A stretch of DNA of 35,075 nucleotides from Planctomycetota bacterium. Lineage in GTDB: Bacteria > Planctomycetota > Phycisphaerae > Phycisphaerales > SM1A02. The notes below the pieces were generated by a model, which worked only from the letters and a program-made list of their open reading frames with translations, made no database searches and was not told where the DNA came from. Made by a program: the position numbers and the translations under genes. The stretch spans positions 1 through 35,075 of the forward strand of contig JACNLO010000038.1 of NCBI GenBank assembly GCA_014381555.1. The letters run 5' to 3'. Below are positions 32,347 to 35,075 of this stretch, in pieces (position 1 is the first letter of the stretch; each line of letters begins with the position of its first letter).

Positions 32347-32463
32347 CAGAAAATTATTACTCAGGAACATGGTCCCCATGCTGCAATGAGTTCAAGAAGG
32401 TCTGCTACTTGCACAGTACCATTGCCATCTAAATCACTTGGGCACGCTGCGACTCCACAACAC
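32347..32463 (-). repeat. Dockerin cassette, copy A
   Basis: These 117 bp match 33026-33142 with only two differences by eye (32370 and 32373). The block covers the 3' coding end (from C-G-V-A-A-C to the stop) and 14 bp past the stop. Both differences are synonymous third-position changes (GGA/GGT, CCA/CCG). The flanking coding sequence is unrelated at the DNA level. Confidence 0.95.
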
Positions 32464-32969
32464 TCATCTAGTTGCATTTGAAGTTTAAATAGTTGCATTT
32501 GAAGTAGATCAACTTCGGCCGTCAGGAAATCAATACTATCGGTGTTATATACCACTTGTTCACTATCTTGTACTTGGGCGTTATATAAATCAAAGATGTT
32601 GAAACTCTCGCCACTTATCATGTTAGTAAAGAGTACCTCTTCGCTCATGAGATTTATGTTTTGACTAGCCTGAAGGTTCATGAAGAGAGCATTAAGATTA
32701 ATGTCATAGCTATCAATAAAGGTTTGAAAACCGGATACGTTGAGGTCTCCAAAGGCATTGAGGCCACTGTTGAAGTCAGCTGGACCTACTTGGGATAAAG
32801 GACCGGTGATAATTACGCCATAGGGGTGAACATCAGGACCTCTGGGTTCGCCTGAAGTTGCTGCGAGTGTTGCCATCCCTGCCGCCACTGCCATTGCTCC
32901 TATGGCAAAAATTCGCATTCGTTTATTATTTTTTTCTAGTTTCGTTAATCGTTCTTGTATATCACTCAT
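32361..32969 (-). CDS. Membrane-anchored protein with C-terminal GC-type dockerin (paralogue A)
   Basis: 202 residues with AAAGGA 11 bases before the ATG. The architecture is unusual: a short charged coiled-coil (I-Q-E-R-L-T-K-L-E-K-N-N-K-R) precedes one hydrophobic segment (about 19-37, rich in A, G and M), so it is a signal anchor with a small cytoplasmic head. The outer part has alternating N-I/L-N motifs (I-N-L-N-A-L-F, N-I-N-L-M) suggesting beta-helical stacking. A helix L-L-Q-M-Q-L-F-K-L-Q-M-Q-L-D-E-C-C follows, then dockerin loop D-L-D-G-N-G-T-V-Q-V-A-D ending W-G-P-C-S. No enzymatic motif. It is paired with the similar gene just upstream on the same strand. Confidence 0.85.
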   Translation of the reverse strand: MSDIQERLTKLEKNNKRMRIFAIGAMAVAAGMATLAATSGEPRGPDVHPYGVIITGPLSQVGPADFNSGLNAFGDLNVSGFQTFIDSYDINLNALFMNLQASQNINLMSEEVLFTNMISGESFNIFDLYNAQVQDSEQVVYNTDSIDFLTAEVDLLQMQLFKLQMQLDECCGVAACPSDLDGNGTVQVADLLELIAAWGPCS

Positions 32970-32981
32970 ATTCTTATCCTT

Positions 32982-33001
32982 TGTTATGTAAAACTCTTAC
33001 G
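32982..33001 (-). repeat. Copy 2 of the motif, upstream of paralogue A
   Basis: On the minus strand this reads CGTAAGAGTTTTACATAACA and is followed directly by AAAGGA and the start of paralogue A at 32969. It therefore occupies the 5' untranslated or promoter position. Confidence 0.6.
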
Positions 33002-33025
33002 ACGGGCACACTCCCCTTAAACAAT

Positions 33026-33142
33026 CAGAAAATTATTACTCAGGAACACGGACCCCATGCTGCAATGAGTTCAAGAAGGTCTGCTACTTGCACAGTACCA
33101 TTGCCATCTAAATCACTTGGGCACGCTGCGACTCCACAACAC
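33026..33142 (-). repeat. Dockerin cassette, copy B
   Basis: Partner of 32347-32463, including the same 14 bp beyond the stop codon. See copy A for the differences. Confidence 0.95.
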
Positions 33143-33675
33143 GAATCCACCTGAGTTTGCAGTGCATCGACCTGAGCCTTGAGTGCAAACAAACTGAAAT
33201 CTTCCCACGCGTTTAAATCTCTTACAATCACATCAGTATACGATTCCAGAACCAAATCATTGAAAGAACCAATGCTCGCACTCGATGTTCCATAGAGGCT
33301 CAAATTATTCCATGCTTGAATATCAATATCCGCCGCTTGTTGACGAATCATCAAGTTGCTATTCAGTTGCAACCAATTCGTTGCCCAATCTCCAAGATCT
33401 ATATAATCTCCACCATATCTACTCGTAGACGCAGAAGTCATTTCGATTGAATCGCTTACATCTACTTCAAATGTAGCGCCCGACCAAAGCCAGCCACCTC
33501 GCTCGCCACCCGCTGCAAGCATCGTTGCGCAAACTCCAAGGACGAGTGTACATGCACCAAGAATTTTCATTCTTCGGTACCCTTTCTGTAATTTTGTATT
33601 TTGCTGGCAAAGCAACAAGTTCTTTTCTTCTAACTTATCTAGCCGTTCATTCATAGATTCCATTTCAATCTCCAT
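33040..33675 (-). CDS. Membrane-anchored protein with C-terminal GC-type dockerin (paralogue B)
   Basis: 211 residues with the same plan as paralogue A. An N-terminal coiled coil (M-N-E-R-L-D-K-L-E-E-K-N-L-L-L) precedes one transmembrane segment (about 37-55, I-L-G-A-C-T-L-V-L-G-V-C-A-T-M-L). The exposed region has short strand-like repeats (Y-I-D-L-G-D-W-A-T-N-W-L-Q-L, D-I-D-I-Q-A-W-N-N-L-S-L-Y), then a coiled coil A-Q-V-D-A-L-Q-T-Q-V-D-S-C-C and the dockerin ending W-G-P-C-S. The last residues (C-G-V-A-A-C onward) are identical to paralogue A, while the rest diverges strongly. A later start at M5 or M8 is possible. Function unknown; surface display is inferred. Confidence 0.85.
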   Translation of the reverse strand: MEIEMESMNERLDKLEEKNLLLCQQNTKLQKGYRRMKILGACTLVLGVCATMLAAGGERGGWLWSGATFEVDVSDSIEMTSASTSRYGGDYIDLGDWATNWLQLNSNLMIRQQAADIDIQAWNNLSLYGTSSASIGSFNDLVLESYTDVIVRDLNAWEDFSLFALKAQVDALQTQVDSCCGVAACPSDLDGNGTVQVADLLELIAAWGPCS

Positions 33676-33996: not shown

Positions 33997-34350
33997 ATGG
34001 AAAATAATCTTTCGGATGATCTCAAACATTTCATAGATACTGTCGAGTGGACTTGGGCAAAAACATATGCTGACACCTGGCCACACCATTACATTGTGAA
34101 AGAACGAGTTGATGAAGAATTATTTCTCAAATTCGTCCTTCATATTAGAGAGTACGGCAAGTGGGAGCTTTTTTACAACACTCCCCTCAAATATTTTAAA
34201 CAAGATGAAAATGTCTACTGGACCATGGTACCTAAAGAGAATGATTCTAAATGGTACCCACCTGAAGAAGAAGATATCATCAACTGTTGCTCGGCTAATG
34301 ACACCTATGCAACACGATTACATAATGGAACATTGCCCGAAAATACGTAA
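33997..34350 (+). CDS. Small conserved-type protein next to a nuclease gene
   Basis: 117 residues, no signal peptide. There is no ribosome-binding site, and the ATG sits close to a possible -10, so a leaderless mRNA is possible. The sequence is rich in Trp and Tyr, with F-I-D-T-V-E-W-T-W-A-K-T-Y, T-W-P-H-H-Y-I-V and V-Y-W-T-M, and ends D-T-Y-A-T-R-L-H-N-G-T-L-P. I recall a family of similar ~110-residue proteins of unknown function seen in accessory regions; this is memory, not a search. It precedes the interrupted nuclease gene by 15 bp on the same strand, suggesting a two-gene unit. Confidence 0.75.
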   Translation: MENNLSDDLKHFIDTVEWTWAKTYADTWPHHYIVKERVDEELFLKFVLHIREYGKWELFYNTPLKYFKQDENVYWTMVPKENDSKWYPPEEEDIINCCSANDTYATRLHNGTLPENT

Positions 34351-34365
34351 TGATAGAAAATAAGA

Positions 34366-35075
34366 ATGAATTCTAATTTAATCAGCCAATCTGATTGGGG
34401 CGCGTGCGACGATCTTGTTTCCGCATACTCGGCAGTTATTAATCAAAAATATGAATCGCTATTAAATCTAGTAGAAACGTGGGACAATATTCTTTCTGAC
34501 CTTGGAGGCGATCCTACACATATTGATTGGAACTCATTTCATGTGCTGCGCCTAACTCGTGAAGAGGACTGGTCAGATTAGCTATCCTTTCTCATCAAAA
34601 GATCGGTAACTGGCGTTTTTGCAAGCAATTTGTTTGAAACAAATAAACGTACCACTCAAAATTATTCAAAGCCAAAAATGATTCTTCGCGAAGTACCTCA
34701 AGATCAATATCGCGCAGACCTAATTGTCCAATGGGCAGATGAATATTTCTCTCACATTGAGGTTAAGGTTGGGGACTCAAATCTATTCAAGACATACGCT
34801 ACTAGTCGAGCAATGCAGTCAAAGTTCGGCCAATCATCAGATCGATGGACAGATTACATCCTCCTTCTTTCGAGCCAGATTCCTGATTGGGAATCGATGC
34901 AAAGTCACAAAGATCGCACCATTCATTTGCTGACATGGGAGGATGTATCAGTCTCATTACGATTAGCATTGCAAAGCAATGAATCAATTCTTTGGAAATC
35001 ATGGGCTTACAGTTTTATTGGTGCAATTGAACAGTTACTCATTGGATATAACGGACATTTGCTCCACGAACGACA
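34366..35075 (+). pseudogene. PD-(D/E)XK nuclease-like gene interrupted by one in-frame TAG; right end cut by window
   Basis: The first 71 codons (M-N-S-N-L-I-S-Q-S-D-W ... R-E-E-D-W-S-D) end at TAG 34579-34581. The same frame then stays open for 164 more codons to the window end and is clearly protein-like. Just after the stop it reads L-S-F-L-I-K-R-S-V-T-G-V-F-A-S-N-L-F, and later R-A-D118-L-I-V ... H-I-E132-V-K134-V-G-D and D-Y-I-L-L-L-S. The D ... E-x-K pattern is that of PD-(D/E)XK nucleases. The context E-E-D-W-S-D-stop-L suggests a Trp codon TGG changed to TAG. TAG ends other intact genes here (27253-29769, 8708-8917), so reassignment is unlikely. An internal ATG at 34678 could restart a shorter product that includes the active site. 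The full length is unknown. Confidence 0.72.

Follow-up and report, generated by a model that had tools for sequence, protein, structure and literature searches.

The DNA analysed here (the window) is an entire contig of 35,075 bases, from a genome of 2.0 Mb in 91 contigs. Near its end, a nuclease-like reading frame is interrupted by a single amber codon and preceded by a gene for a small protein. This locus raises the question of whether the two parts of the frame are one gene, whether that gene can still work, and which protein would be its partner. We consider it probable that the frame is gene 1 of a rare two-gene, restriction-like nuclease module, which is switched off by the amber codon in the sequence as assembled.

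The interrupted frame and its homologues

The coordinates of the features are given in Table 1. The preliminary description had reported a nuclease frame split by one TAG, a D118 ... E132 ... K134 signature behind it, an in-frame ATG at 34678 and a small gene located 15 bp upstream, and all of these were confirmed. The TAG is the sole stop in the frame, the three residues are at the positions given, and the small gene is intact. The frame beyond the TAG is open for 164 codons; none of 20000 base-shuffled versions of this segment was open throughout, showing that the open frame is not due to chance.

Table 1. Positions of the small-protein gene, the nuclease frame and its landmarks in the window.
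Feature	Positions	Strand	Remarks
Small protein gene, 117 aa, unnamed family	33997..34350	+	Pattern W-x-(F/W)-A-K-T ... P-H-x-Y ... Y-W-x-M ... I-N-R
Nuclease frame, first 71 codons and amber stop	34366..34581	+	W11, W39, D49, P50, E66, E67, W69 and S70 inside
In-frame TAG, residue 72	34579..34581	+	Within predicted helix 66-79; Trp in 19/21 and Gly in 2/21 homologues
Rest of the PD-(D/E)XK-like core, truncated by the contig end	34582..35073	+	E109, D118, E132, K134
In-frame ATG (M105), possible restart	34678..34680	+	Product from this ATG lacks the E66/E67 helix

Homologues were sought with the joined frame, in which the TAG was read as Trp. A tblastn search yielded four haloarchaeal plasmid proteins (27-31% identity to the window nuclease). 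A genome scan based on their alignment yielded 18 loci, of which 12 are bacterial, with identities of 47% at most, and 6 are haloarchaeal. The bacterial hosts are labelled Leptospiraceae, Bacteroidales, Acidobacteria, Myxococcaceae, Archangium, Spirochaetaceae, 'delta' and unplaced. Two pairs of loci each come from one genome (L020 with L021, and L023 with L025), and L026 was left out as the same record as L008, so that the four plasmid records and 18 genome loci make 21 distinct homologues.

All 21 aligned homologues cross the position of the TAG; none of them ends at residue 71 and none has a stop in frame. Trp occupies the corresponding column in 19 of them and Gly in the other 2, in agreement with the earlier proposal of a single change from TGG to TAG. 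One of the two patterns used in the genome scan covered this column, so that the count leans to Trp or Gly; among the ten homologues that are independent of that pattern the numbers were 8 and 2, respectively. These ten comprise three seen by tblastn only and seven matching the other pattern, as judged from the aligned letters (P0002, P0003, P0005, L011, L019, L023, L025, L026, L027 and L028). A more distant relative, found as a profile match (L131), reads REEVYSDWLAW in this region, with Trp at the TAG column by eye.

The residues E66, E67, W69, S70 and L73 before or next to the TAG, and E109, D118, E132 and K134 after it, are invariant in all 22 aligned rows (21 homologues plus the window), and the six acidic and lysine residues among them are thus all retained. 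The window keeps 11 of 12 columns that are invariant in the 12 bacterial homologues before the TAG and 19 of 19 after it; for the columns common to at least 90% of all 21 homologues it agrees at 10 of 11 and 17 of 19, respectively, the deviations being P60, A74 and V106. Judged from these alignments, the frame on either side of the TAG is one gene. Apart from the TAG the nuclease shows little decay, and the intact state of the other catalytic residues suggests that the stop either arose recently by mutation or reflects a base error.

The second of these, an error in the assembled consensus with an intact nuclease in the living cell, is a serious possibility, to which we give about one chance in three. 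The position of the TAG, ∼0.5 kb before the contig end, and the full set of bacterial-invariant columns behind it both speak for an error; on the other hand, the gene upstream is undamaged, the TAG is the only stop in the frame, and a genuine mutation of recent date would look no different. The homologues run 22-38 residues past the last nuclease residue of the window, and the window is the whole contig, which indicates that the 3' end of the gene is lost at the contig end. A search of the source genome found the last 210 bases of the contig only once, and no overlapping contig to which they could be joined.

Read-through of the TAG, which the preliminary description had suggested and by which the full-length protein would be made at a low level, appears very unlikely. 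The frame and the catalytic residues are intact on both sides of the stop, and a suppressor could have been missed, as the tRNAs read do not form a full set (that for Asn is lacking). Yet the genome contains an RF1-like and an RF2-like gene, distinguished by their motifs and each with a score under the curated RF1 cut-off. Of 29 long frames taken as genes, 4 terminate in TAG, and the 31 tRNA matches included no CUA anticodon; two of them gave no anticodon, one being truncated at a contig end and the other unclear at this site. In addition, none of the 21 homologues has an in-frame stop.

The nuclease was found in none of 60 relatives of the source genome and in none of 391 other genomes of the phylum, a sample that partly overlaps these relatives; in the phylum of L019, one distant match was obtained among 395 other genomes. 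In viral contigs none of 77 and none of 4 pattern matches was confirmed, and a phage collection gave no match at E 0.01. The family is rare and scattered over bacteria and haloarchaea. These two genes of the window, nuclease and small protein, have lower G+C contents (38% and 40%, in either order) than bases 1-31600 (44%); together with the rarity of the family, these values would fit a mobile accessory module.

Predicted fold and downstream partner of the nuclease

The window protein, with Trp in place of the TAG, was modelled with AlphaFold2 together with 18 homologues (pLDDT 88.7, pTM 0.84). The modelled core consists of helix 66-79, strands 105-112, 115-122 and 128-133, helix 142-153 and strand 161-167. 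It is the first core helix, with the invariant E66 and E67, that contains the TAG. This placement bears on a restart at the internal ATG, from which a shorter working nuclease might be made. Such a product would keep E109, D118, E132 and K134, but it would lack helix 66-79 with the five residues E66, E67, W69, S70 and L73 that are invariant in 22 rows, and no aligned homologue begins at this point. The internal start, also raised in the preliminary description, is therefore improbable, to nearly the same degree as read-through.

Comparison of the model with known structures by Foldseek gave no match at E ≤0.001 (the best was 1.8e-3, with TM-scores of ∼0.2-0.35), and the 21 best rows are all proteins that we take to be of the PD-(D/E)XK type: NucS/EndoMS, SduA, Can2, EcoO109I, SfsA, MspJI and PspGI. 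With VIA, Z values of 8.7 to 1y88 (109 residues, rmsd 3.0), 8.6 to the small subunit of R.BspD6I (122 residues, rmsd 3.4) and 8.1 to EndoMS (112 residues, rmsd 3.6) were obtained, to be read with the caution that top values of 7 to 8 often occur in the absence of a clear match. The model has the alpha/beta core fold of the PD-(D/E)XK enzymes, and the conserved D ... (D/E)-x-K residues are present. Taken jointly, fold, structural rows and residues suggest that the gene product is PD-(D/E)XK-like, and it would then be expected to cleave DNA in a metal-dependent manner.

Sequence-based searches matched the nuclease and its partner (see below) to described families weakly or not at all. None of the 22 nucleases and 18 partners matched Pfam at E 0.01, and PADLOC-DB 2.0.0 matched single members only (E 0.0038-0.0052, to SduA, LmuA or PDC-S26). 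NCBIfam, tried with the window nuclease only, gave no match above a cut-off, and PHROGs gave none for the nuclease or the partner from L011 and Halorientalis (one each). Sequence matches of the nuclease, the partner and the small protein in the PDB were taken for chance; the best had an E of 0.0095, between the partner and a nanobody.

The predicted core and the order of the acidic and lysine residues resemble those of NucS/EndoMS, the R.BspD6I small subunit, the FokI cleavage domain and Can2/Card1. However, the aligned parts are only 5-15% identical in most rows, and the window family has its own E-E-x-W-S-x-W-L helix motif, an N-terminal helical part and an adjoining partner gene. Shedu (SduA, DUF4263) is also a PD-(D/E)XK nuclease and is among the structural matches to the model. 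The SduA profile matched 1 of the 22 nucleases weakly (E 0.0052) and 21 of 22 not at all at E 0.01. Shedu is a one-gene system, whereas the window family has a conserved second gene.

This second gene (gene 2) is a frame on the same strand that directly follows the nuclease in 21/21 homologous loci and overlaps it in 20 of them. It starts between -32 and +1 bases from the nuclease stop, with an 8-base overlap in 11 loci (the starts were chosen by us). The product measures 156-171 aa in bacteria (11 complete loci) and 183-200 aa in haloarchaea (7 loci whose frame is full-length); these 18 sequences are diverged and can still be aligned. In L013 gene 2 is cut off by the contig end. In two haloarchaeal loci, it is split over two frames (L024:4802-5370) or shortened by a stop and perhaps broken (L006:6863-7414), and in both the frame of gene 1 is open. 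No obvious partner was seen within the stretch examined around the distant relative L131. Gene 2 of the window would begin beyond base 35075, past the contig end, and a profile search of the rest of the source genome (run without a positive control) gave no match; the gene may lie on sequence missing from the assembly, be too diverged, or be absent.

Genes of defence type were seen near some homologues, namely DUF262 (L007), an N-6 methylase (L008), cas genes (L009) and AbiEii (L013), which are examples rather than a survey of all loci. An N-6 DNA methylase is located ∼0.1 kb past gene 2 in one of the four annotated plasmid loci; the incomplete gene tables of the other three list none.

From these data we propose the following mechanism. 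The protein of gene 1 would be a PD-(D/E)XK-type endonuclease and the DNA cutter of the module. Gene 2, encoding ∼155-200 aa directly after gene 1 and nearly always overlapping it, would supply target recognition or restraint; the two proteins would act jointly as a restriction-like unit, presumably in defence, and an extra small protein lies beside the pair in some hosts. In the window the amber codon takes the place of a conserved Trp in the first core helix. Translation of the gene as assembled would end after 71 residues, giving a fragment that lacks the D118/E132/K134 site, and the module would thus be off; the amber would have arisen recently in the population, or else be a consensus error of the assembly.

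Two small overlapping genes, located on plasmids in four haloarchaea, could serve for addiction, as toxin and antitoxin, and not as a restriction-like barrier. We find this unlikely: gene 2 has no Pfam family and only one weak PADLOC match, and in such pairs the toxin gene less often comes first. Moreover, gene 2 looks broken in L024 and perhaps in L006 while gene 1 remains open, which a lethal toxin would not easily allow. A restriction-like pair remains our preferred reading. A lone stop codon in a gene of this kind is commonplace and holds limited interest, less than the two unnamed families. The first is this nuclease family, with its constant partner gene, its thin spread over bacteria and haloarchaea and its lack of a Pfam match.

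The small protein in bacterial loci and phage cassettes

The second family is that of the small protein encoded upstream of the nuclease, which was modelled with confidence and for which no structural match was found. An alignment of 39 rows, with the window protein as row 1, has W18, A21, T23, P29, H30, W75 and N96 invariant. The AlphaFold2 model has a pLDDT of 91.3; Foldseek against the PDB and BFVD gave no match at E ≤0.001, and the best VIA Z of 3.5 was not convincing. The window protein had no match in Pfam, PADLOC, NCBIfam or PHROGs, and 0/39 family members matched Pfam. When ten proteins were tried against PHROGs, nine had no match and the viral small protein of L074 matched phrog_13345, of unknown function, weakly (E 0.0027). 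Homologues are present in 3 of the 60 relatives of the source genome, and the profile found the family in 2 of the 391 other genomes of the phylum, one of these being a 33-residue match.

The preliminary description had paired the small protein with the nuclease as a possible accessory or defence unit, and this pairing was borne out in part. The 18 genome loci of the nuclease come from 16 genomes, of which 15 were searched, and two of them carry the small protein, located in both cases ∼0.5 kb past the nuclease. It lies on the nuclease strand and forms the start of a longer protein in L015, and is encoded on the opposite strand in L019; both hosts are labelled Acidobacteria and may not be independent. 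With the window included, all three searched genomes that have both genes show the small protein near the nuclease. As the arrangement differs each time, the small protein is a recurrent neighbour and not a fixed member of an operon, and the constant partner of the nuclease is the downstream gene.

Eight loci of the small protein (L003, L004, L005, L010, L061, L062, L065 and L066) were neither reached by way of the nuclease nor part of the phage cassette described below, and in five of these (L004, L005, L010, L065 and L066) a restriction-type or nuclease-like gene is located beside or near it. In L005/L126 (L126:5944-8684), the small-protein gene begins on the final base of a full-length gene of the GmrSD type, so that the two overlap by one base. 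In L010, one WYL gene separates the small protein from McrC of a McrBC system, whose AAA protein also has an EVE domain. The window nuclease itself has no match to GmrSD, AAA or McrBC models. The neighbours in L004 and L066 are nuclease-like by a D ... E-x-K pattern alone; those of L004/L127 and L066 are similar to one another in sequence (BLASTP E 4e-6), have no Pfam family and match the window nuclease profile weakly (hhalign probability 7.7 and 1.9, respectively). No restriction-type or nuclease-like neighbour was recognised in L003 and L061, where the neighbours scanned had no Pfam match. The L062 locus is a 33-residue partial match, and its adjoining DUF2779 gene was not counted as restriction-type.

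Two further observations concern the make-up of these loci. The gene that overlaps in L005/L126 encodes the small protein in its first half and a C-x2-C ... C-x2-C pattern in its second. In L065:2164-4303 a C5 cytosine methylase, an HNH endonuclease and the small-protein homologue adjoin; this contig, like that of L066, is classed as viral.

A scan of viral contigs (IMG/VR) confirmed 60 small-protein loci out of 106 pattern matches (L063-L122); several of these contigs are near-identical, and the 60 loci are not 60 independent events. A PP-loop gene like that of L093, which matches Pfam PAPS_reduct and DUF3440, was found in the examined flanks of 55 loci, a ParB-like gene in those of 54, and one or both in 56. 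The four loci with neither are L065, L066, L090 and L120; the last two, which are outside the list of eight given above, have no nuclease beside the small protein by eye. Four loci (L100, L106, L113 and L116) show a fusion of the small domain with a methyltransferase. A collection of named phages yielded no small protein at E 0.01. The window thus has the small protein family in common with phage cassettes of the PAPS-reductase-like/DUF3440 and ParB-like (IbrA/IbrB-like) type, but none of the four window genes scanned upstream is PP-loop/DUF3440 or ParB-like, and none of the viral contigs scanned carries a confirmed nuclease.

The phage PP-loop/ParB-like pair presumably resembles IbrA/IbrB. 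The latter are described in two reports as coactivators of prophage gene expression (PMC4490671, PMC5874904). A literature search returned nothing specific to the nuclease pair or the phage cassette, and no direct study of the role of the cassette.

The occurrence of one small protein family both in phage cassettes and in bacterial restriction loci raises a further, speculative reading, which we hold to be rather doubtful as a whole. The small protein would have an undescribed fold tied to nucleic-acid modification on the phage and the host side. In the phage cassette of PP-loop/DUF3440, ParB-like and methyltransferase genes, it might help to make or mark modified nucleic acid. Bacteria would have taken it over next to nucleases of the modification-dependent or restriction-like kind, and there it might read or tune the same mark. 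Nuclease, partner and small protein would then form an undescribed three-component defence module. If the link to modification were true, the small protein would offer a simple handle on the role of the phage PP-loop/ParB-like cassette.

Upstream of the small-protein gene, the minus strand of the window carries two tandem paralogous genes (32361-33675) that are 42% identical and have a coiled-coil-like start. The last ∼30 residues of the second paralogue (33040-33675) are repeated many times per genome in 13 of 13 genomes of the same genus that were searched, and are probably a sorting or dockerin-like tail.
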